Made by a program: the position numbers and the translations under genes. The notes under the pieces are model-generated. The model saw only the letters and a program-made list of their open reading frames with translations. It did not search any database and was not told where the DNA came from. From contig WRPE01000013.1 of the NCBI GenBank assembly GCA_009773315.1, positions 1 through 61,413 of the forward strand: a stretch of 61,413 nt of DNA, given 5' to 3'. Origin of the DNA: Syntrophaceae bacterium. Lineage in GTDB: Bacteria; Desulfobacterota; Syntrophia; Syntrophales; Smithellaceae. Below are positions 42,858 to 58,034 of this stretch, piece by piece (the stretch's first letter is position 1; each line of letters begins with the position of its first letter).

Positions 42858-43523
42858 CTATTGCATCTTCCGAATCCGCACCTCAATGCCCTTCTCGTCC
42901 TTGAGCAGCGCAACCAACTTTGCTGTATCCGTCTCGCCATAGTGATAGGGATACAAAATCGTCGGCTTGAACTCTTTGGCCGCATCGGCAACCATTTCCG
43001 GCGTCATGGTATAAGGCAGGTTCATCGGCAGAAACGCGATGTCGATATTCCGGAGTTTCTTCATCTCCGACGTGTTTTCCGTATCCCCGGCAATATAGAG
43101 GCGCTTGTCGCCGAAGGTTACAATATAGCCATTGCCGACACCTTTGGGGTGAAACGGCTTCCCCGGTGCTTGCATGTTGACGATATTGTAGGCAGGTACG
43201 GCCTCAATCTGCAAACCATCCACCGTTTGCCGGTTGCCGTTTTTCATCACCACAATACCGGGTATTTGACTGGCCACCTCGGACGTGCCGACGATTTTTG
43301 TAGCAGCGGTTTTAATGCTATTGACGGCTTTCAAGTCCAGATGGTCATAATGCTCATGGGTAATGAAGATGATGTCCGCCTTGGGTAATTTCGCGTAATC
43401 CGCTTCCGACGAGACCGGATCAATATGGATTGTTTTCCCGACATAGGTCATCATCAATGAGCCATGCCCAAGAAAACTGATGACAAGGTCTCCTTGCGAC
43501 GTTTTAATGGTATCTGCTTCCAT
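42858..43523 (-). CDS. MBL-fold metal-dependent hydrolase
   Basis: A 221-residue metallo-beta-lactamase fold. The metal motif THEHYDHLD (HxHxDH) is present, then a His/Asp-bearing loop at IAGDTENT, and a terminal His at YPYHYGE. It belongs to the UlaG/UPF0173-like branch. Substrates of that branch vary (lactones, phosphodiesters). ATG 43523 follows GGAGGG. It is convergent with the thioesterase and faces away from the HTH gene to its right. Confidence 0.88.
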   Translation of the reverse strand: MEADTIKTSQGDLVISFLGHGSLMMTYVGKTIHIDPVSSEADYAKLPKADIIFITHEHYDHLDLKAVNSIKTAATKIVGTSEVASQIPGIVVMKNGNRQTVDGLQIEAVPAYNIVNMQAPGKPFHPKGVGNGYIVTFGDKRLYIAGDTENTSEMKKLRNIDIAFLPMNLPYTMTPEMVADAAKEFKPTILYPYHYGETDTAKLVALLKDEKGIEVRIRKMQ

Positions 43524-43583
43524 GTTTCCCTCCTTTTTTTGAATCCATCAATAAGCGCATTCCCCGTAGCTTGCGCTAAAATT

Positions 43584-44243
43584 TTACTTTTGCGACAATC
43601 GCGCGACGGTATCCATATAACGGGTGCTGAGTGCTTCCACTGGTTCCAAGCACAAACACTTCAAATATGATTTGACAAATCCCTTGAGAAAAACGGCTGC
43701 CGGCAGGCGCGCGACATGATCTTCTTCCATACTGCGCAAATGATCATGTCGTATTTTCGTCTCCTGCGCGATTTGTTCAATAAGCACCCCAAGCTCCGTG
43801 CGGATTTTTTTCAAGTCTGCTCCGCATAATTCATTCTGGGCCAAGATATCGCCAATGAGTTGACTTTGATTGATTTTGTTTTTTAATGTTTCATTATTCG
43901 TTAAAGCAACTTTGGCGACAGGATTGCGACTGATATTAAAAATACTCACCGGTTTTTTAGCGGTGGACGTAGCTTCTTTTCTTACGTCGAGCTCCCCTCT
44001 GCGGATTAATTCTTCATTGTAATCTTTCCTTGCCTGGTCACTGATCAGCGTCCGATATGCTGTCTCGACGAGAGACAGGATATCCTGTCTTTCATCCTCC
44101 GGGAAAAAAGAATAGCTCGCGAGCGAACCGGGCTGATAGACCTGCAGGGCGGCGTTATAAGCATGTCGTATTTCAAACGCCACTGCGTCCGGTTTGATGT
44201 CCAGCACTTCATAATAGTTTAATTGCGTAAAATCTTTGGGCAT
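43584..44243 (-). CDS. Degenerate J-domain with RodZ-type helix-turn-helix
   Basis: A 219-residue protein. The N-terminal part (LNYYEVLDIKPDAVAFEIRHAYNAALQVY) has the helix pattern of a DnaJ J-domain, but the HPD tripeptide that activates DnaK is replaced by a loop around YQPGS. The C-terminal 80 residues (AQNELCGADLKKIRTELGVL, then PAAVFLKGFVKSYLKCLCL) are the RodZ/HTH_25-type domain. There is no transmembrane helix, so it is not a full RodZ. It lies 48 bases after the MinD-like gene, probably in one operon; a link to MinD-like positioning is inference. Confidence 0.75.
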   Translation of the reverse strand: MPKDFTQLNYYEVLDIKPDAVAFEIRHAYNAALQVYQPGSLASYSFFPEDERQDILSLVETAYRTLISDQARKDYNEELIRRGELDVRKEATSTAKKPVSIFNISRNPVAKVALTNNETLKNKINQSQLIGDILAQNELCGADLKKIRTELGVLIEQIAQETKIRHDHLRSMEEDHVARLPAAVFLKGFVKSYLKCLCLEPVEALSTRYMDTVARLSQK

Positions 44244-44291
44244 GCAAAATCTCCGTTGCCGTTGCCTGACGGCCGGGGTTGATGGTTTTCT

Positions 44292-45212
44292 TTACAGATA
44301 GCGGAACATTAATTGCTGGCCGCCAGGCTGAACAATCTGCTTGCCCACCTCATGGAGGTCACACGCGGTTCTGGTACAGGGATAGCGGTCCAGAAAAGAC
44401 ACTCGCTGACAAATCGCATCATGAACATGATCATCATAAGCCACGTTGCCTGCAAACTCGATATGCAGTCCCAGATGTTTCTCGAGCATTCTGCTCATCT
44501 GCATCCCAAGCGCGGCGTTGTCATGTTTGCGCACCTGATTGATAATGAGCTTGAATCGAAACGCACTGAACGCATCTTGCAGTTGCTCGTATTTTTCCGG
44601 ATACACATCCGCAATGACTTTGATCATGCATTCAGGCTTATTGAAGGAACCATCGCCGAATTGGATGACGACCTCGTCCTCCAGCGCTTTGAAATCCGTC
44701 ACATTGAAGCAGTATCGAATCCGGCGGAAGTAAATAGAGCGAATCAGCCGATAAACATTTTCAATGGATGTTGGTTCCGGTGTGGTGATAAAAATGCCGT
44801 GTTGCGAGATCAGGAAAAAATCAAGCGTGTTGAAAGATGTCCCGGCGCCCAAATCCAGCAGGACGCTGTCATAGTCTAATTTCATAATGGCGCGGAGTGT
44901 TTTAATTTTCTGCTCATAGGGCAGGTTGGCGACATCAAAATTGTCGTGAGCGCCGCTGATCAGAAAGAGGTTTTCAAAAGGCGTCTCCACGACCGTGTCT
45001 TCCAGTCGGAAAGTCTTTTTACGGATAAAATCGGAAAACCCTTTTTTCGGATAAGGAACACCAACCAGGGTATGCAGATTGGCCGCCCCCAGATCAAGAT
45101 CGATCACCAGCGTTCTCTTGCCCAGTCGCGCCGACAGCCGTCCTAAGGAACTGGTTAAAAAACTCTTGCCGGAACCGCCCTTCCCTCCTCCAATGGGCCA
45201 GATATATGCCAT
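44292..45212 (-). CDS. MinD/ParA-family ATPase
   Basis: A 306-residue P-loop ATPase with the deviant Walker A GGKGGSGKS, DLDLGAANLHTL, DSVLLDLGAGTS and TTPEPTSIENVYRLI, matching the MinD/FlhG (MinD2) branch. There is no obvious C-terminal membrane-targeting amphipathic helix like that of MinD. Such ATPases position division sites, flagella or other cargo. Its partner here is the J-domain/HTH protein downstream. A good promoter (45240-45268) precedes it. Confidence 0.88.
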   Translation of the reverse strand: MAYIWPIGGGKGGSGKSFLTSSLGRLSARLGKRTLVIDLDLGAANLHTLVGVPYPKKGFSDFIRKKTFRLEDTVVETPFENLFLISGAHDNFDVANLPYEQKIKTLRAIMKLDYDSVLLDLGAGTSFNTLDFFLISQHGIFITTPEPTSIENVYRLIRSIYFRRIRYCFNVTDFKALEDEVVIQFGDGSFNKPECMIKVIADVYPEKYEQLQDAFSAFRFKLIINQVRKHDNAALGMQMSRMLEKHLGLHIEFAGNVAYDDHVHDAICQRVSFLDRYPCTRTACDLHEVGKQIVQPGGQQLMFRYL

Positions 45213-45386: not shown

Positions 45387-46772
45387 TTGACTTATCATTC
45401 TATTGCCTCTAAAAAAACCAATAACTTTTTAAACCGCGCGGATGAAGGCATGATCGATTGCGAACCGAAAATTAAAGTAGCGCTGCTGCAAGATTCCCCC
45501 GAAGCCCGCCTGAAGCTCACAGGTTCTTTTTTTCTACCGGACGGCCGAGCTGTTACAGGCGAGCTTTCCGTCCGCGCCGCAAACGGGCAGCTCGTTCTTA
45601 CTGCTTCCGACGGCGGGCAGATCATCCGTCAAAAAGAAATCTTCCTTACACCCGATGCGCTAACCGCAATTTATTTTACCGTCCTGGATGTAAAAATCGG
45701 CATCAATTTTCACTGGCAGAGAGTCCAGGAGCAATCTTTTCGCGGCGCACTGCTTCTGTCGGGACACAGCGAGACCACCTTCGATCTCATCAATATCATC
45801 TCACTCGAAGAATACCTCGCCTCGGTGATCTCGTCGGAAATGGCGGCAGGAGCTCCCCTGGCTTTTCTCAAAGCACAGGCTATTACAGCGCGCAGCTGGC
45901 TTGTGGCGATGCTCGCGAAAAAGGAATTTGTCCGGACGCTGCCCCGGCAGAAAGAAGATGAAATTCTGACCTGGCAGGATGTCAACGATCATCAAGACTT
46001 CGACGTCTGTGCCGACGACCACTGCCAGCGGTATCAGGGCGTCACCAAAATCATCTCTGAAAATGTCGCCCGGGCCATCGACGCCACGCGCGGGATATTC
46101 CTGACAAGCGGCGGTCAAATTTGCGATGCACGCTATCACAAATGCTGCGGCGGACAGACGGATGTTTTTTCGACGGCCTGGGAGGATGTGTCTTTTCCCT
46201 ATCTTGCCGGCAGAACCGACTATGCGGAAAATCAGCCCCCGGTGACCTCGGAGGAAGAAGCGGCCGCCTGGCTGCGATCAAAACCGGCCGCCTATTGCAA
46301 CACAAACGATCAGGGAATCCTGCGGCGGATATTGCCCGCATTTGATCTGGAAACATTGAATTTCTATCGCTGGCAGGTTGCCTACACCAGAAAGGAGCTG
46401 GAGGAAATTCTTAAGGCAAAATCCGGTATCGACTTCGGCATCCTGCAAAATCTTGAACCTATGGCGCGCGGCCCATCCGGAAGAATCCATCGTCTCAAAA
46501 TAGAAGGCTCGCTCGGCACAGTGGTTGTCGGCAAGGAACTGGAAATCCGCCGCTGGCTCTCGCCCACACACTTACTTTCCAGCGCATTTGTCGTCACCAC
46601 CGAGCGGGATACAGACGGAACGGTTTTACGTTTTATCCTGGACGGCGGTGGCTGGGGGCACGGCGTGGGCCTGTGTCAGATCGGTGCAGCGGTTATGGCG
46701 GTTCAAGGACACGACGCCGAGAATATTTTAGCGCACTACTTCACAGGCGCGATTTTGAGGAAGCTGTATTGA
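45387..46772 (+). CDS. SpoIID/LytB domain protein
   Basis: A 461-residue protein with the SpoIID/LytB domain: ISLEEYLASVISSEMAAGAP, LKAQAITARSW, the cysteine-bearing HKCCGGQTDVFSTAWED, and the C-terminal GGWGHGVGLCQIGA with GHGVGLCQ. SpoIID is a lytic transglycosylase that cleaves glycan strands and leaves 1,6-anhydroMurNAc. The start is the first codon available after an upstream stop (TTG 45387, AGGGCGG upstream); no signal peptide is visible from it, which is odd for an enzyme acting outside. It is followed by an AmpG-like permease and muropeptide kinase genes. Confidence 0.9.
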   Translation: MTYHSIASKKTNNFLNRADEGMIDCEPKIKVALLQDSPEARLKLTGSFFLPDGRAVTGELSVRAANGQLVLTASDGGQIIRQKEIFLTPDALTAIYFTVLDVKIGINFHWQRVQEQSFRGALLLSGHSETTFDLINIISLEEYLASVISSEMAAGAPLAFLKAQAITARSWLVAMLAKKEFVRTLPRQKEDEILTWQDVNDHQDFDVCADDHCQRYQGVTKIISENVARAIDATRGIFLTSGGQICDARYHKCCGGQTDVFSTAWEDVSFPYLAGRTDYAENQPPVTSEEEAAAWLRSKPAAYCNTNDQGILRRILPAFDLETLNFYRWQVAYTRKELEEILKAKSGIDFGILQNLEPMARGPSGRIHRLKIEGSLGTVVVGKELEIRRWLSPTHLLSSAFVVTTERDTDGTVLRFILDGGGWGHGVGLCQIGAAVMAVQGHDAENILAHYFTGAILRKLY

Positions 46773-46829
46773 CGCAGTTCCTCAAAGAAGAACTGGAGAA
46801 AGCGCGTAAAAACGAGTTAAAGGAATTTC

Positions 46830-48122
46830 ATGTCCCCATCAAACGAAAAAACAGCGGAAAGAACCCGTAACCCGTGGCTCTGGGTGCCTTCCATTTATAT
46901 AGCTGAAGGCATTCCCTATATGATCGCCATGACCGTCAGCGTGGTACTTTACAAAAACTTGGGACTCTCCAACACACAAATCGCTCTTTACACCAGCTGG
47001 CTTTATCTTCCTTGGGTGATCAAGCCGATTTGGAGCCCCTTTGTCGATCTTTTCCGCACCAAGCGCTTCTGGATTATCGCCATGCAGCTGACCATCGGCG
47101 GATCGTTCGCCTGTGTGGCTCTGACTTTGCCCACAACAGATTTTGTCAGATACACCCTGGCGATATTCTGGATTATGGCTTTCAGTTCCGCCACGCATGA
47201 CATTGCCGCCGACGGCTTTTACATGCTGGGGCTCGACACGCCCGAACAGGCTGCGTTTGTCGGCGTACGCACGGTTTTTTACCGCGTGGCCACCATCGCC
47301 TCCAAAGGCGGCCTGGTGATTCTGGCAGGCCTTCTACAAAAATACGGCTATCCAGTCGCTTCCGCCTGGTCGATTACGTTTCTGGCCGCCGGGGCGGTTT
47401 TCCTGGCTTTGTGCCTTTATCATTTTTTCGTTCTGCCCTACCCTGAATCGGATCATAGCGCGCCGCTGGATAAAGGAAAAAGTCCGGTTGCCGAGTATTT
47501 TCGCATTTTGACGTTGTTCTTCCGGCGCAAGGATATTGTCACCATCATCTGCTTCTTTTTGTTTTACCGCTTTGCCGAAGCACAGTTGGTGAAAATGGTC
47601 GCTCCCTTTCTACTCGATTCCCCCGCCAAAGGCGGTCTGGGGCTTTCCACCACCGAAGTCGGTTTGATCTACGGCACCATCGGCGTTGTGGCGCTCATGC
47701 TGGGCGGGCTTTTGGGCGGCTATGTCATTTACAAAAACGGCTTGAAATTCTGGCTTTGGCCGATGGTAATCATGATGCACGCGCCGGATGTGATTTTTGT
47801 GTATCTGTCGCACGCACTGCCTCAAAATCTGTGGCTGATCGGCTCTGCCGTGGCGATTGAGCAGTTCGGCTACGGATTTGGTTTTACCGCTTACACGATG
47901 TATATGATTATGGTGTCGCAGGGGGAATACAAAACCGTTTTTTACGCCATCGGCACCGGCATCATGGCCTTGGGCATGATGCTGCCGGCAATGGCCAGTG
48001 GCTGGATTCAGGAGAAGCTGGGGTATATCAATTTCTACTACTGGATATTGCTCACGACGATCCCCGGATTCATTGTTACGGCACTGGTAAAGATTGATCC
48101 GGAGTATGGGAAGAAGATTTAA
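46830..48122 (+). CDS. AmpG-like muropeptide permease (MFS)
   Basis: A 430-residue major-facilitator protein with about twelve hydrophobic segments. The opening NPWLWVPSIYIAEGIPYMIA and TSWLYLPWVIKPIWSPFVD, then HDIAADGFYML, are typical of the AmpG family, which imports anhydro-muropeptides or related products. ATG 46830 follows AAAGGA. It lies 57 bases after SpoIID and 23 before the MurU-like gene. Export or another amphiphile cannot be excluded, but the neighbours favour peptidoglycan recycling. Confidence 0.87.
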   Translation: MSPSNEKTAERTRNPWLWVPSIYIAEGIPYMIAMTVSVVLYKNLGLSNTQIALYTSWLYLPWVIKPIWSPFVDLFRTKRFWIIAMQLTIGGSFACVALTLPTTDFVRYTLAIFWIMAFSSATHDIAADGFYMLGLDTPEQAAFVGVRTVFYRVATIASKGGLVILAGLLQKYGYPVASAWSITFLAAGAVFLALCLYHFFVLPYPESDHSAPLDKGKSPVAEYFRILTLFFRRKDIVTIICFFLFYRFAEAQLVKMVAPFLLDSPAKGGLGLSTTEVGLIYGTIGVVALMLGGLLGGYVIYKNGLKFWLWPMVIMMHAPDVIFVYLSHALPQNLWLIGSAVAIEQFGYGFGFTAYTMYMIMVSQGEYKTVFYAIGTGIMALGMMLPAMASGWIQEKLGYINFYYWILLTTIPGFIVTALVKIDPEYGKKI

Positions 48123-48145
48123 GGTTTTAAGGAGAATACATTAAC

Positions 48146-48859
48146 GTGCCATCCAAAATAATCAAAACAGCCTTCCTATTAGGGGCAGGGTTAGGGACAA
48201 GGCTTCGGCCGATTACGGAAAATATGCCCAAGCCGCTTTTGCCTATCGGTGGTCGCCCGATGATCACTTATGCGATGGAACATCTGCGGGCCATTGGCGT
48301 GCAAAGGTTTATTGTTAATACGCATCACTGTGCCGAGAAATATTCCGAAGCATTTCCTGACGGCAACTGGCATGGCCTTCCAATCATTTTCCGGCATGAA
48401 ACGATGCTTTTGGACACCGCAGGCGGCATCAAAAATATCGAAGACCTGATTGAAAAAGACGAACGTCTGATTGTTTACAACGGCGATATTATCACCAATT
48501 TGCCTCTGGAGCCGATTATCGACAGGCATTTTGGAGGTAAAGCACAGGTAACACTGGCTCTGCGCAGCCGCGGACCACTCACGAACGTCAATATTGACAG
48601 CACGGGCTTTATCTGCGATATGAGAAATACTCTGCATAACCCCGGCGTTCAAAGCTGTCTTTATGCAGGTATTTACATTATGGAAATATCGTTTTTACAG
48701 CGGCTCACGGCGGGTAAAATCGAATCGATTGTTTTGCCGCTGATCGAAAGTATCAGGGAAAATCCCCGCTCCATCGGAGGGATTGTGATTGACGAAGGTT
48801 TCTGGTACGATCTCGGGACGATTGAAGAATACAATAAATTGCGCGAGCAATACTTATGA
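48146..48859 (+). CDS. Nucleotidyltransferase, MurU-like
   Basis: A 237-residue sugar-1-phosphate nucleotidyltransferase: AFLLGAGLGTRLRPITENMPKPLLPIGG, then DTAGGIKN and YNGDIITN (Asp for metal). MurU makes UDP-MurNAc from MurNAc-1-phosphate; its short size and its position just before an AmgK-like kinase and after AmpG fit this. Other NDP-sugar roles are possible on motif alone. The start is GTG 48146. Its stop overlaps the AmgK-like start by four bases (ATGA). Confidence 0.85.
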   Translation: MPSKIIKTAFLLGAGLGTRLRPITENMPKPLLPIGGRPMITYAMEHLRAIGVQRFIVNTHHCAEKYSEAFPDGNWHGLPIIFRHETMLLDTAGGIKNIEDLIEKDERLIVYNGDIITNLPLEPIIDRHFGGKAQVTLALRSRGPLTNVNIDSTGFICDMRNTLHNPGVQSCLYAGIYIMEISFLQRLTAGKIESIVLPLIESIRENPRSIGGIVIDEGFWYDLGTIEEYNKLREQYL

Positions 48860-49848
48860 ACAAAGAAATACGAAAATTCTTAAATGATCATCTGGGTGTG
48901 GTGGACTTTCAATATGATCCTATTAAAAAGGGCGGCTCCGACCGCAATTTTTATCGGGTACACCTGCCTCATGGTCCCGCTTTCATTTTCATGCAATACG
49001 GAACCGATGTCGAGGAAAACGCCTACTGGGCGGAAATCAACCGCTTTATGACCGAAATCGGCATACCGGTACCGGTCATCATTGCCTATGATTACCGGCA
49101 GCGTTTTTTATTGCTCGAAGACCTGGGTGACATTGATTTGTATTCGCTCCGCACCCTTCCCTGGTACAAAAGGCGTCACTATTATTTAAGGGCGCTTTCG
49201 GAAATACACAGGCTGCATCGCATTCCACCGGCCGACTTGCCGGCTCATTTGAAACTGACTAAAGGATATGACCGATCTCTCTACGTGTGGGAGCACAACT
49301 ACTTTAAGGAAAATTTTGTTGAGACGGTCTGCAGGTTGGAGTTGTCCGATTCCTTGATGCGCGACTGGACAGAAGAATCAGACGGGCTGATCGGCCGTCT
49401 GCAAAAAAATCAAACATGCCTGATCCACCGGGATTTTCAGTCCCAGAATATTATGATTAAAAACGACCGGCCTGTTTTCATTGATTTTCAGGGGATGAGG
49501 CTGGGCAACCTGTTTTATGATCTGGGGTCGCTGATCTGCGATCCCTATGTGACGTTCAGCAACGATGAAAGAAACGAACTGATTTCCTTTTATTACCGGA
49601 TTATGCAGCCGAATTACACCTTGGATCAATTCACCGATTATTTCTGGGACGGTGCCGCCCAACGCCTGATGCAGGCCCTGGGCGCCTACGGTTTTCTGGG
49701 AATCAAAAAAAACAAGCCGGATTTTCTCGACCACATACCCACCGGCATTAAAAATTTAGTAACAGCCACCTCCAACGCCGGAACCCTGCCGGTTCTAAAC
49801 GAACTGGCCCGGAATTGCATGAACAAACTTTCATCAAAGCCAGGATGA
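48856..49848 (+). CDS. Phosphotransferase, AmgK-like
   Basis: A 330-residue aminoglycoside-phosphotransferase-fold kinase with the Brenner motif LIHRDFQSQNIMI and the metal Asp in VFIDFQGMR. AmgK phosphorylates MurNAc or anhydroMurNAc at the anomeric position, giving the substrate of MurU. Translational overlap with the MurU-like gene and the AmpG neighbour support that role. Without them it would be called only a phosphotransferase. It ends the rightward four-gene group. Confidence 0.85.
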   Translation: MNKEIRKFLNDHLGVVDFQYDPIKKGGSDRNFYRVHLPHGPAFIFMQYGTDVEENAYWAEINRFMTEIGIPVPVIIAYDYRQRFLLLEDLGDIDLYSLRTLPWYKRRHYYLRALSEIHRLHRIPPADLPAHLKLTKGYDRSLYVWEHNYFKENFVETVCRLELSDSLMRDWTEESDGLIGRLQKNQTCLIHRDFQSQNIMIKNDRPVFIDFQGMRLGNLFYDLGSLICDPYVTFSNDERNELISFYYRIMQPNYTLDQFTDYFWDGAAQRLMQALGAYGFLGIKKNKPDFLDHIPTGIKNLVTATSNAGTLPVLNELARNCMNKLSSKPG

Positions 49849-54678: not shown

Positions 54679-57258
54679 ATGAAACCTTCGGTTTATAAAT
54701 TAGGACGTTTTTTACTCTGGAGCGCAACGGATGAAAAACAGGCGGCAAACGCCTGGCCCGCCGGAGCGGACACGGGCAAATCCGCCGGCCGGCCTTCTTC
54801 GTTCTTCAGTAAAATATCGTCTGATTATTTACTGGTGCTGGATTCGACGACGGACGTCTCATGCGATCAACAGTCATTGCGAAGACTCTTGGCCATCGCC
54901 CGCGATACCGGGGCGGGGATAATTTATTCAGATTTCCTTCGCCGCGACGGGGATGATATCAGCGCGCACCCGTTGAACGACCATCAGGAAGGTTCAATTC
55001 GCGATGATTTCAGCTTCGGCTATTTTTTTATAATTTCTGCGGCAGCCATTAAAACCGTTTTGCAAAAATACGGCATGCCACCCCATGACGCATCCACCGC
55101 TCTATATGATCTGCGTCTGAAAATTTCCATCGATCATGCCTTGATTCATGTGCCGGAGTTTTTATACACGGTATCCGCAAAAAAGATTAAACCGGCAAAA
55201 TCATCAGGCAGGCAAACAGAGGAGCAATTTGCCTATGTCGCAGAAGAAAATTTCGTCCGTCAGCAAAAGATGGAGAAGATTGCAACAAACTATCTGAAGC
55301 AAATCGGAGCACACTTACCTGCGCGTACAAAAAGGACTGATAAAGAGCCGGAGGCTTTCCAATGGAAGGCCAGTATCGTCATTCCCGTGCTCAACCGTAA
55401 AAAAACCATTACCGACGCGCTGACGAGCGCTTTGGGACAGCAGACGGACTTTCCCTTCAACATCCTGGTTGTGGATAATCATTCCACGGACGGTACCACA
55501 AACATTTTGAAAAGATTTGCCGCAAAGTATCCCCACATTCAACATATTATCCCTTCTAGGCATGATCTCGGTATCGGCGGTTGCTGGAATGAAGCAATTT
55601 GTTCGCCGCATTGCGGTCGATATATCATTCAACTGGATTCCGACGATCTTTACAGCTCACCACAGACACTTCAAAAAATCGTCACCACCTTACGACGGGG
55701 ACAATATGCGATGGTCGTGGGTTCTTATACGTTGGTTGATGAAAAGCTCAAATCCATTCCGCCGGGATTGATCGACCACCGTGAATGGACGCCTCAAAAC
55801 GGCCACAACAATCTGTTGCGGGTCAACGGTATGGGCGCACCGCGGGCTTTTGACGCCGCCGTCATCCGCCAGATCGGTTTTCCCAATGTGAGTTATGGAG
55901 AGGATTACGCCGTGGCCCTGCGTTTGACACGGGAATATGCAATCGGCCGAATTTACGAAAGCCTGTATTTATGCCGCCGCTGGAGAGACAATACCGATGC
56001 CGGTCTTTCCGAGGAGAAACAAAACCACAATGATTATTATAAAGATAAACTGAGAACGATCGAAATTCAAACCAGACAGCAGATAAACGAAAAAGAAAAA
56101 TCTACTCAGAATATAAACGATAAAAATCACAAAGAGTGTCGTCATTCCCGCGCAGGCGGGAATCCAGAATTTTTAAATACTGGATTCCGGGTCGCGCTTC
56201 GCTTGCCCGGAATGACAAATGAAGCAGTTACGGCGCCTCCTCAAACAGCAGACCGGCAGACTGGTTCCTCTGCTTCGCTTGCACCAAATCAAATCTTTGC
56301 CGAATTCCCCGGGAAAGATGATAAAACACTCCCTCAGATTTGTCACAATTTCTTTAAGTCGCAAAAGAAGAGCTGGCCTGCTCTCGCCTCTGCCTGCCGC
56401 GATCTGACCGGAACAAAAATTCGGAAACTTTCTTGCGGCAACTATTCAATCACCTTGCAATACAACCCCGCCCGCGCTCTCAGCAGTGGCGCAGCGGTGG
56501 ATGCAAAATCCATCAAAAAAAGACCCTGCTTTTTATGCCGGGGAAATTTACCGCCCGGTCAACATGGCATTTTATACCGCAATCGCTACCTGATTCTCTG
56601 CAATCCCGCGCCGATTTTCGACCGTCATTTTACCGTTGTTACACTTAAACACCAGCCGCAGGACATTATGGCATCCCTAAGTTGGCTCTTACAAATAGCC
56701 AAAGACGCTTCGCCGGATTATACGGTTTTATACAATGGCCCGGCCTGCGGCGCCTCCGCGCCCGATCATTTGCATTTTCAGATGATCCCGTCGGATACCC
56801 TTCCCTTCCTGAAGGAGTTGAACGAACTGCCGCCGATTAAAGTTGGCGCTACTGTTCAAATCTTTGCAGGAAAAGGGTTTGATCGCGCTGTTGTCGTACT
56901 GGCATCTGAAGACACAGAAGCTTTGAAAGAACAATTCATTCATTTATTAAAATCCGCACAGGAAGTGTTCACAATAAACGATGAACCGCCGGTGAATGTC
57001 TTTTGTGATCACGATAAAGGTTGCCTGCGTCTCACGGTCTTTTTGCGCCGGAAGCACCGTCCCGATGCCTACTATGCCGAAAGTGAAGACAGAATTTTCG
57101 TCTCACCCGGGGCCATTGATATAGCCGGCGTGATCATTACACCGCTATTGAAAGATTTTGAAAAACTTAATTGCGATACAATGCGGAAAATATACCAGGA
57201 AGTGTCGCCGGATGAAGAAACACTCGAAAAAATTATTTCTTCCATACGAACGTGCTAA
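54679..57258 (+). CDS. Glycosyltransferase 2 - DUF4922 fusion with in-frame repeat
   Basis: An 859-residue protein. About residues 1-225 resemble a degenerate glycosyltransferase fold; residues about 230-480 are a GT2 domain (ASIVIPVLNRKKTITDALTS, DxD in QLDSDDLY). Residues 488-513 are encoded by a palindromic repeat (56140-56217). The C-terminal half has CFLC (617-620) and the HIT-like triad H697-x-H699-x-Q701 (DHLHFQ), as in DUF4922 and GalT-type phosphorylases or uridylyltransferases. The two activities suggest glycosyl transfer coupled to a nucleotide-sugar or phosphorylase step; the substrate is not known. No strong ribosome binding site precedes ATG 54679. Confidence 0.8.
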   Translation: MKPSVYKLGRFLLWSATDEKQAANAWPAGADTGKSAGRPSSFFSKISSDYLLVLDSTTDVSCDQQSLRRLLAIARDTGAGIIYSDFLRRDGDDISAHPLNDHQEGSIRDDFSFGYFFIISAAAIKTVLQKYGMPPHDASTALYDLRLKISIDHALIHVPEFLYTVSAKKIKPAKSSGRQTEEQFAYVAEENFVRQQKMEKIATNYLKQIGAHLPARTKRTDKEPEAFQWKASIVIPVLNRKKTITDALTSALGQQTDFPFNILVVDNHSTDGTTNILKRFAAKYPHIQHIIPSRHDLGIGGCWNEAICSPHCGRYIIQLDSDDLYSSPQTLQKIVTTLRRGQYAMVVGSYTLVDEKLKSIPPGLIDHREWTPQNGHNNLLRVNGMGAPRAFDAAVIRQIGFPNVSYGEDYAVALRLTREYAIGRIYESLYLCRRWRDNTDAGLSEEKQNHNDYYKDKLRTIEIQTRQQINEKEKSTQNINDKNHKECRHSRAGGNPEFLNTGFRVALRLPGMTNEAVTAPPQTADRQTGSSASLAPNQIFAEFPGKDDKTLPQICHNFFKSQKKSWPALASACRDLTGTKIRKLSCGNYSITLQYNPARALSSGAAVDAKSIKKRPCFLCRGNLPPGQHGILYRNRYLILCNPAPIFDRHFTVVTLKHQPQDIMASLSWLLQIAKDASPDYTVLYNGPACGASAPDHLHFQMIPSDTLPFLKELNELPPIKVGATVQIFAGKGFDRAVVVLASEDTEALKEQFIHLLKSAQEVFTINDEPPVNVFCDHDKGCLRLTVFLRRKHRPDAYYAESEDRIFVSPGAIDIAGVIITPLLKDFEKLNCDTMRKIYQEVSPDEETLEKIISSIRTC
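56140..56217. repeat. REP-like palindrome inserted in frame in a coding gene
   Basis: 78 bases with outer arms GTCATTCC (56141-56148) and GGAATGAC (56209-56216), and inner stems CCCGC/GCGGG, AATCCAG/CTGGATT and CCGGG/CCCGG. It contributes exactly 26 codons, RHSRAGGNPE...RLPGMT, between the GT2 domain and the DUF4922 domain. A decayed relative lies at 57307-57418. Confidence 0.92.
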
Positions 57259-57306: not shown

Positions 57307-57418
57307 CGTCATACCGGCAAAAGCCGGTATCCAGATTCATTAATAATACTGGATTTACCCTAATCACATGAAGGTGACGCGAGGGCACAAGCCGGGTCAC
57401 GCTTCGCTTGCCCGGAAC
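57307..57418. repeat. Second copy of the GTCATTCC repeat family, decayed
   Basis: It has CGTCAT, the stem ACCGGC/GCCGGT, ATCCAG...CTGGAT, and CCGGG...CCCGGAA, in the same order as the copy inside the glycosyltransferase, with a longer middle. It lies just upstream of the M15 peptidase, and its end contributes the false upstream extension of that frame. Confidence 0.8.
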
Positions 57419-57482
57419 GCGTGACCTGAAAGGTTATGACAAAAACAGTAGTTTTGCAAATTACCTAACGGAGTTAAGCCCA

Positions 57483-58034
57483 ATGCCCAATGAAGAAATC
57501 ATTATCGACAGCGACATGAGCTTTGCCGAAGCCATTGAAGGCAGCGCCGCGCCGCTTGAAGTCATTGATTCCTTATCAATGATCGATGTGACTTATTATT
57601 CTTTTGACGGCCTGCGCCATCAGGGGCAGATGATGGTGAACGCAACGCTTGAAGACGACATCTACGAAATATTTCAGATGATTGAAAAACTCAAATTTCC
57701 GGTCGGCAAAGTCATCCCCATTATCGCCTACAACTGGGAAGACGGCGATTCCATGGCCGACAATAATTCTTCCGGGTTCAACTTCCGGGTGATTGAGGGA
57801 ACCAATAAGCTTTCACTGCACTCTTTCGGACGCGCCGTGGATATCAATCCTGTTCAGAATCCGGTCATCTACCCGGCCGGAATTATCGCCCCTGCCGGAG
57901 CGACCTACCGCCTCAAAAATAACGGCACCTTCGCTGCCGGGCACCCCATTGTGCAAGAGTTCATCAAACGCGGCTGGCATTGGGGCGGCAATTTTGAGCA
58001 GCCGAAAGATTATCATCATTTTGAGAAAACGTAA
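57483..58034 (+). CDS. M15-family peptidase
   Basis: A 183-residue metallopeptidase-like protein with SLHSFGRAVDINP (H-x6-D type, here HSFGRAVD) and the C-terminal YHHFE, the zinc ligands of M15 D-Ala-D-Ala or L-Ala-D-Glu peptidases. It would trim peptidoglycan peptides. No signal peptide is seen from ATG 57483, which follows GGAG; the frame opens 25 codons earlier inside a repeat. It may act on muropeptides in the cytoplasm or leave by another route. Confidence 0.85.
   Translation: MPNEEIIIDSDMSFAEAIEGSAAPLEVIDSLSMIDVTYYSFDGLRHQGQMMVNATLEDDIYEIFQMIEKLKFPVGKVIPIIAYNWEDGDSMADNNSSGFNFRVIEGTNKLSLHSFGRAVDINPVQNPVIYPAGIIAPAGATYRLKNNGTFAAGHPIVQEFIKRGWHWGGNFEQPKDYHHFEKT

Follow-up and report, generated by a model that had tools for sequence, protein, structure and literature searches.

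SpoIID enzymes are known as exported cutters of the cell wall. The gene considered here encodes a SpoIID-family protein of another kind and is the first of four genes in a stretch of 61,413 nucleotides from a Syntrophaceae bacterium (GenBank assembly GCA_009773315.1, contig WRPE01000013.1, positions 1 to 61,413; hereafter the window). The three other genes encode AmpG-, MurU- and AmgK-like proteins. The window SpoIID is probably a cytoplasmic enzyme that acts on wall sugars after their import and ahead of the kinase for N-acetylmuramic acid (MurNAc). The chances are judged even that the locus belongs to a cytoplasmic module for the recycling of peptidoglycan sugars, in which SpoIID would open the anhydro ring and a family 2 glycosyltransferase (GT2) joined to a DUF4922 domain would stand in place of NagZ.

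The closest described systems are the recycling routes of Pseudomonas and Tannerella forsythia and the SpoIIDs already characterized. In the Pseudomonas route, AnmK acts before MupP (PMC13041923), a phosphatase that yields free MurNAc from MurNAc-6-phosphate (PMC5371407). The anabolic AmgK/MurU route has been seen so far in few species, though its distribution is described as wider than thought (PMC13046382). Use of MurU-AmgK is reported for T. forsythia, too; this species grows on GlcNAc-anhMurNAc (N-acetylglucosamine, GlcNAc, linked to 1,6-anhydroMurNAc) and weakly on anhMurNAc, no AnmK ortholog is predicted in it, and its anhMurNAc route is called unexplored by the authors (PMC7670621). No AnmK match was found in the T. 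forsythia genome searched here (G262). The annotation of its operon lists a xanthan lyase, two glycosyltransferases, a lytB amidase enhancer, ampG and ybbC, and the AmpG, Tanf_08365, is functional in E. coli (PMC5388701). In the literature consulted, no function is assigned to Tanf_08350-08360. In C. difficile SpoIID, E101, C140 and H145 are required for in vitro activity and E101 is catalytic; the zinc motif is stated to be exclusive to this enzyme (PMC6221140). The SpoIID of Waddlia can employ water: on denuded glycans it acts as a muramidase (PMC6635528). No assignment of function to the SpoIID family of the window was found in a literature search from which subscription journals were largely absent.

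The locus and its SpoIID-family protein

The four genes were identified from the open reading frames (ORFs) of the window and from profile searches. Their order, their common + strand and the ATGA overlap of the last two, as given in the original prediction, agree with the coordinates. The SpoIID gene (45450..46772, +; PF08486, TIGR02669) encodes 440 amino acids (aa) from an ATG. After 57 bp comes the gene of the AmpG-like muropeptide permease (46830..48122, +; major facilitator superfamily, PF07690, 51.2 bits) and, after a further 23 bp, that of the MurU-like sugar-1-phosphate nucleotidyltransferase (48146..48859, +; GTG start; PF00483, 81.9 bits). The reading frame of the latter shares 4 bp (ATGA) with that of the AmgK-like sugar kinase (48856..49848, +; aminoglycoside phosphotransferase fold; PF01636, 78.2 bits; PDB 3csv, E 1.9e-13). 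The same prediction took the locus for a peptidoglycan-recycling one. This is supported: the AmpG-like protein is 56% identical to the functional Tanf_08365 (locus L126 in the comparison below), and the MurU- and AmgK-like genes are adjacent here and fused in loci L052, L076 and L082. The observation is confirmed; the anatomy of the locus is solid and its chemistry unproven.

The SpoIID ORF is open from a TTG at 45387. Read from there, it scores 78.4 bits against PF08486 (cut-off 23) and 166.9 bits against TIGR02669 (cut-off 83.3); the equivalog model of sporulation SpoIID, TIGR02870, gives 116.6 bits, below its cut-off of 234.75. The start is probably the ATG at 45450 rather than the TTG, since the alignments of relatives begin at the ATG. 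The AlphaFold model of the protein (mean predicted local distance difference test (pLDDT) score 86.6) matches C. difficile SpoIID 5i1t (Foldseek E 1.0e-12; VIA-align Z 23.7, root-mean-square deviation (rmsd) 2.6, 266 residues aligned). In a profile alignment to 5i1t/5txu, Glu130 (codon 45837..45839, +) is aligned with the catalytic E101, and H181, C187, H191 and C192 (His181...Cys187-x3-His191-Cys192, 45990..46025, +) with the zinc ligands H134, C140, H145 and C146; the residue numbers are derived from chain positions. The Glu and all four ligands are invariant across 38 aligned family members, so that the motif described as exclusive to the C. difficile enzyme is present in 38/38. Profile, fold and catalytic Glu all place the protein in SpoIID/LytB. 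Judged from sequence and model, the window SpoIID looks like an active enzyme with an intact lytic-transglycosylase active site.

The lack of a signal peptide had been noted in the original prediction as a puzzle. The lack is confirmed from both starts: no N-terminal hydrophobic stretch is found (best 17-residue window 0.29 and 0.40). It is not a side puzzle but a clue to location. A signal peptide concealed by the choice of start, and revealed from the TTG at 45387, was considered and rejected, as both starts lead to an N-terminus that is not hydrophobic. Export was assessed by a hydrophobicity scan (17-residue windows, threshold 1.6), which is not a signal-peptide predictor. Within the first 60 residues, 76 of the 77 family members scanned have no window above 1.6 (highest 1.59) and 6/6 classical SpoIIDs of relatives have one (1.96-2.37). 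Within 45 residues, the hydrophobic window is missing in 76/77 members and present in 5/6 classical SpoIIDs. The 77 members correspond to the 80 loci described below minus three whose match starts late. The sole exception is L123, whose SpoIID ORF, of 940 aa, extends in frame through a transporter-like segment further upstream: a fusion or a lost stop codon. The N-terminal signal or anchor of an exported, wall-acting SpoIID is not found in the window protein. This protein is a member of a separate family, found in deltaproteobacteria, Ignavibacteria and Bacteroidota, whose sequences suggest a cytoplasmic location.

Association with GT2 and DUF4922 and near-exclusion with GH3

Window-type SpoIID (E <1e-100) occurs in 46 of the 59 genomes of relatives searched (window's genome included), and a classical, weakly matching SpoIID in six (best E 1e-9 or less). 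Genome G049 carries both types on separate contigs; the second hit in G006 covers 41 residues. The nearest named relatives are deltaproteobacterial metagenome-assembled genomes (MAGs), several of them Smithellaceae, Smithella or Syntrophaceae; the window SpoIID is 93% identical to that of locus L068. A scan of the genome collection gave 591 candidate stretches, 548 of which encode relatives. The counts over named loci use the best 80 of the 548, which come from records of deltaproteobacteria, Ignavibacteria and Bacteroidota and include several short contigs. The original prediction had called for a search for the same order in other genomes. AmpG follows SpoIID in 13/14 loci of the same genus or family, and MurU-AmgK comes next in 11/14; the four-gene arrangement is therefore more than chance. 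The commonest continuation in these loci is LeuS, a short ORF (LptE), GT2-DUF4922 and M15. LeuS is absent from that position in the 13 loci fetched from the order's other families, ten of which have MurU and/or AmgK.

Two linked genes are missing from the set of the original prediction: a GT2-DUF4922 fusion of 859 aa (54679..57258, +; PF00535, 86.9 bits; PF16269, 180.3 bits; GT2 domain 55372-55776, DUF4922 domain 56350-56787) and an M15_4 peptidase (57408..58034, +). An ORF scan of the 79 named loci (the 80 minus L077, whose SpoIID escaped the filter) gave GT2 in 51, AmpG in 47, DUF4922 in 40, MurU in 16 and AmgK in 15; by a best-hit rule, DUF4922 is in 45/80. GT2, DUF4922 and SpoIID are consecutive or fused in 28/80 loci, and GT2 and DUF4922 form a single ORF in 11/80. 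All three are encoded by a single ORF in Xylanibacter caecicola (L130, 1276 aa) and in a Paraprevotella MAG (L135, 1297 aa); DUF4922 is fused to SpoIID in L144 (755 aa). The domain content and order of these three fusions are confirmed by Pfam. GT2 and diadenosine tetraphosphate (Ap4A) phosphorylase-like domains act on cytoplasmic nucleotides, and the fusions therefore argue for a cytoplasmic SpoIID; the characterized relatives of GT2 and DUF4922 work on nucleotides or sugars linked to nucleotides.

The DUF4922 model (pLDDT 93.7) matches the yeast Ap4A phosphorylase Apa2 4i5t (Foldseek E 8.3e-11; Z 23.5, rmsd 3.1, 268 aligned, ~18% identity). The next fold matches, at Z 8-11, are a DUF4931 protein, uridylyltransferases and the Arabidopsis ADP-glucose phosphorylase 2h39 (Z 9.3). 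A PDB sequence search yields a chance-level match only (E 0.073), so the assignment rests on the structure model. An H-x-H-x-Q motif is invariant in 35 aligned sequences; both fold and motif are those of nucleotidyltransferases/phosphorylases of the histidine triad (HIT) superfamily. In GT2, the motifs LDSDD and YGED show no variation across 17 aligned sequences. Both domains look active from motifs and model. The linker between them in the window contains an in-frame stretch (56131-56232; HSRAGGNPEF...) that resembles an inverted-repeat element by eye; its 24-base core is present in a single copy in the window. The corresponding ORF of the close relative L068 has 817 aa, 42 aa less than in the window.

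Hexosaminidases were surveyed as glycoside hydrolase family 3 (GH3, the NagZ family) alone. The original prediction had called for a search for NagZ elsewhere. At E 0.001, the window's genome yielded neither a GH3/NagZ nor an AnmK match, so the pair NagZ and AnmK of Pseudomonas-type anabolic recycling is not present there at this threshold. Among the 59 relatives, GH3 is found in five, all devoid of window-type SpoIID, and in 0/46 that carry it (p 2.6e-4; this and the following p values are from Fisher tests not fully corrected for ancestry). The phylum sample (deltaproteobacteria, Desulfobacterota, judging from named relatives) includes 198 genomes, window-type SpoIID being called at >=216 bits with the family profile: 23 have SpoIID of this type, 138 GH3 and three both. 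GH3 is thus in 3/23 SpoIID-family genomes vs 135/175 others (p 2.7e-9). Counted by taxonomic family, by hand, any GH3 is found in 2/7 families with window-type SpoIID vs 60/70 without (p 0.0025). DUF4922 at >=148 bits is found in 17/198 genomes, all within the 23 (p 6.6e-20). The Pfam cut-off is passed by 23/198: the 17 strong cases plus six at ~23-27 bits without window-type SpoIID, some of which pass only with neighbouring in-frame matches.

AmgK-like genes are found in 135/198 phylum genomes, by a search that fails to separate recycling types; the 16 genomes with a match at >=344 bits all carry window-type SpoIID. An AmgK start lies <=6 kb from window-type SpoIID in 15/20 listed phylum genomes with both, and <=6 kb from GH3 in 29/101 listed ones with both; the counts cover 135 of the 138 GH3 genomes and 123 of the 135 AmgK genomes (matches listed; those <108 bits left out). 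The position beside the kinase is therefore taken by SpoIID or by GH3. AnmK was searched in the 59 relatives, 148 Bacteroidota genomes and 25 named genomes. In Bacteroidota, it is found in 8/22 genomes with window-type SpoIID vs 95/126 without (p 6.5e-4). MurQ exceeds the TIGR00274 cut-off in 0/59 relatives (window's genome included), so this mark of E. coli-type catabolic recycling is not found there. MurQ-based catabolism near the window was considered and rejected, as no TIGR00274 match in the 59 genomes exceeds the cut-off; the best ones are in ORFs of ~200 aa.

Proposed pathway and alternatives

In the proposed pathway, GlcNAc-(anhydro)MurNAc would be imported by AmpG. GlcNAc-anhMurNAc, the product of lytic transglycosylases, should sit in the -2/-1 subsites of SpoIID. 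The Glu would protonate O6 and water would attack C1, giving GlcNAc-MurNAc with a free anomeric hydroxyl; lytic-transglycosylase chemistry would thus be run in the hydrolytic direction. That the window SpoIID opens a 1,6-anhydro ring specifically is a tentative assignment, put at a little under even. GT2 and DUF4922 may then remove GlcNAc, or convert it, in the place of NagZ. MurNAc would be phosphorylated at C1 by AmgK and converted by MurU to UDP-MurNAc (UDP, uridine diphosphate), neither AnmK nor MupP being needed. AmgK requires a free C1 hydroxyl, and anhMurNAc has none. The same core stands before MurU/AmgK in the window and before MurT/MurK/MurQ in T. forsythia, and both routes start from free MurNAc. 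The proposed SpoIID module would deliver it to AmgK or MurK without AnmK or MupP; it would replace NagZ and perhaps AnmK.

An extension of this pathway is rather doubtful: GT2, DUF4922 and SpoIID would form one energy-conserving catalytic unit that turns GlcNAc-anhMurNAc into free MurNAc and GlcNAc-1-phosphate. GT2 would work in reverse (GlcNAc-MurNAc + UDP -> UDP-GlcNAc + MurNAc) and DUF4922 would catalyse a phosphorolysis (UDP-GlcNAc + inorganic phosphate -> GlcNAc-1-phosphate + UDP). In syntrophic and gut anaerobes, such a unit would replace NagZ, NagK, AnmK and MupP. If this widespread SpoIID branch is cytoplasmic and acts as proposed, it would put lytic-transglycosylase chemistry to a new use and add another way of recycling muramic acid, and it could explain the reuse of wall pieces in some bacteria devoid of the usual recycling enzymes. 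Window-type SpoIID is a concrete candidate for a published gap, the use of anhMurNAc by T. forsythia without AnmK (PMC7670621).

Several results weigh against the ring-opening module. Subfamily cut-offs are missed by all three partners of SpoIID. The permease scores 165.7 bits against TIGR00901 (cut-off 350) but is 56% identical to a functional AmpG, and is therefore filed as AmpG-like. The MurU-like protein scores 118.2 bits against NF045761 (cut-off 250) and 61.8 against NF045697 (cut-off 370); a mannose-1-phosphate guanylyltransferase model outscores NF045761 with 131.7 bits, and the PDB MurU 8hhd (E 1.8e-12) is outranked by eight other nucleotidyltransferase sequences. The AmgK-like protein scores 91.2 bits against NF045759 (cut-off 550) and 57.7 against NF045698 (cut-off 500). 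Since these cut-offs are missed, the sugar specificity of all three rests on gene context. Neither NagZ nor window-type SpoIID is found in 8/59 relatives, some of which are incomplete genomes. The three phylum genomes with both genes have GH3 ORFs of 669, 728 and 833 aa, long for NagZ; the counts for the remaining phylum genomes are without a length filter. DUF4922 is missing in 6/23 SpoIID-family genomes of the phylum; in four of these GT2 lies beside AmgK, and in two (L149, L151) no GT2 is nearby. AnmK is kept in the 8/22 Bacteroidota genomes given above and in 6/25 named genomes. It is below cut-off in 59/59 relatives (nine sub-threshold hits), the five NagZ carriers included, so that the lack of AnmK does not, near the window, set the SpoIID family apart. 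According to PMC7670621, T. forsythia AmpG imports GlcNAc-MurNAc as well, and the output of GlcNAc-MurNAc in T. forsythia extracts is 8.6 times that of GlcNAc-anhMurNAc. As GlcNAc-MurNAc is the major product, the SpoIID module may be needed mainly for something other than ring opening and might serve GlcNAc-MurNAc first. B. subtilis SpoIID did not show the muramidase activity of the Waddlia enzyme (PMC6635528).

Other functions were considered for the same genes. SpoIID could act in the cytoplasm as an ordinary lytic transglycosylase or muramidase that trims imported oligosaccharides longer than a disaccharide, another, unrecognised enzyme splitting GlcNAc-MurNAc. The intact residues and the cutting of denuded glycan by C. 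difficile SpoIID (PMC6221140) are in line with this. However, PMC7670621 gives disaccharides, with peptides or without, as the substrates of AmpG; strands of greater length are therefore not expected inside, and the exclusion with GH3 and the deficit in AnmK would be left unexplained; trimming is considered unlikely. A biosynthetic module, in which GT2 and DUF4922 would build a nucleoside diphosphate sugar and a MurNAc-containing glycan or glycoconjugate edited by SpoIID, salvage being only a supply, would fit the normal, synthetic function of GT2 enzymes. It would also fit T. forsythia, where Tanf_08350 and Tanf_08355 are termed glycosyltransferases and the operon is tied to protein glycosylation (PMC5388701). 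The exclusion with NagZ and the adjacency to AmpG and MurU-AmgK are at odds with such a module, to which a still lower probability is given.

The exclusion itself could be an accident of ancestry, the clades with window-type SpoIID having lost NagZ for unrelated reasons and using other hexosaminidases. SpoIID of this type is indeed confined to 7/77 taxonomic families of the phylum sample, and the eight relatives with neither gene are compatible with such a history. The GH3 deficit nevertheless persists by taxonomic family (p 0.0025), three families of the order itself (f2, f6, f18) have NagZ and not window-type SpoIID, and SpoIID and GH3 hold the same place beside AmgK in different genomes; this explanation is regarded as improbable. 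The view of the original prediction, an exported lytic enzyme that would release anhydro-muropeptides, be co-transcribed with the salvage genes and thereby couple release from the wall to salvage, has the least probability of all. SpoIID-type enzymes do produce anhydroMurNAc ends (PMC6635528, PMC6221140). An exported SpoIID is rejected here, as 76/77 members have no hydrophobic N-terminus and the SpoIID is fused to GT2/DUF4922 in two genomes.

Neighbouring genes and comparison with described systems

Between the AmgK-like gene and GT2-DUF4922 lie genes for a CoA-transferase and for two proteins that we take, from their sequences, to be LeuS and LptE. The M15_4 peptidase (PF13539, 67 bits) is a peripheral member of the locus. 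It has no obvious signal peptide (hydrophobicity 0.94, first 60 residues) and a PDB sequence search with it gave zero matches; it is a possible candidate for the cytoplasmic cleavage of stem peptides. An M15_4 peptidase gene is immediately 5' of SpoIID in L049, L076 and L082 (other families). Upstream, at 42858-45212 and divergent, the window encodes a MinD-like ATPase, a DnaJ plus HTH_25 protein and a metallo-hydrolase. A MinD gene precedes SpoIID in 14/14 genus and family loci. The similarity of the HTH_25 protein to RodZ is weak and far below cut-off. AmpG-like ORFs of 615-677 aa are found in L075, L095, L104, L110, L114, L120, L127, L129, L140 and L141; their alignment with the window AmpG is interrupted between residues 170 and 179 of the latter, as would be expected from the insertion of a domain of ~200 aa.

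With the NagZ-AnmK-MupP-AmgK-MurU route of Pseudomonas, the locus shares an AmpG-type importer, an AmgK-like kinase, a MurU-like transferase and the expected end product, UDP-MurNAc. It differs by the cytoplasmic-type SpoIID, GT2 and DUF4922, present instead of GH3/NagZ and AnmK, for which the window's genome has no match. With Apa2, GalT and ADP-glucose phosphorylase (HIT superfamily), DUF4922 shares the model fold and H-x-H-x-Q; it differs in being linked to GT2 and SpoIID. With the SpoIIDs of C. difficile, B. subtilis and Waddlia, the window SpoIID shares the fold and the catalytic Glu, and with that of C. difficile also the zinc site; unlike them, it lacks a hydrophobic N-terminus, is fused or linked to GT2 and DUF4922 and remains below the TIGR02870 cut-off. 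The Tanf_08345-08385 operon of T. forsythia has the same core order: GT2, DUF4922, SpoIID (annotated lytB) and AmpG. At the same positions, L126, which lies on the same contig as this operon, encodes a Golvesin-domain protein, GT2, DUF4922, SpoIID, AmpG and NamZ, the gene of this exo-muramidase being directly 3' of AmpG (L126:12637-13875). The two loci differ in what follows this core: NamZ and MurT-MurK-MurQ genes in T. forsythia, MurU-AmgK in the window.

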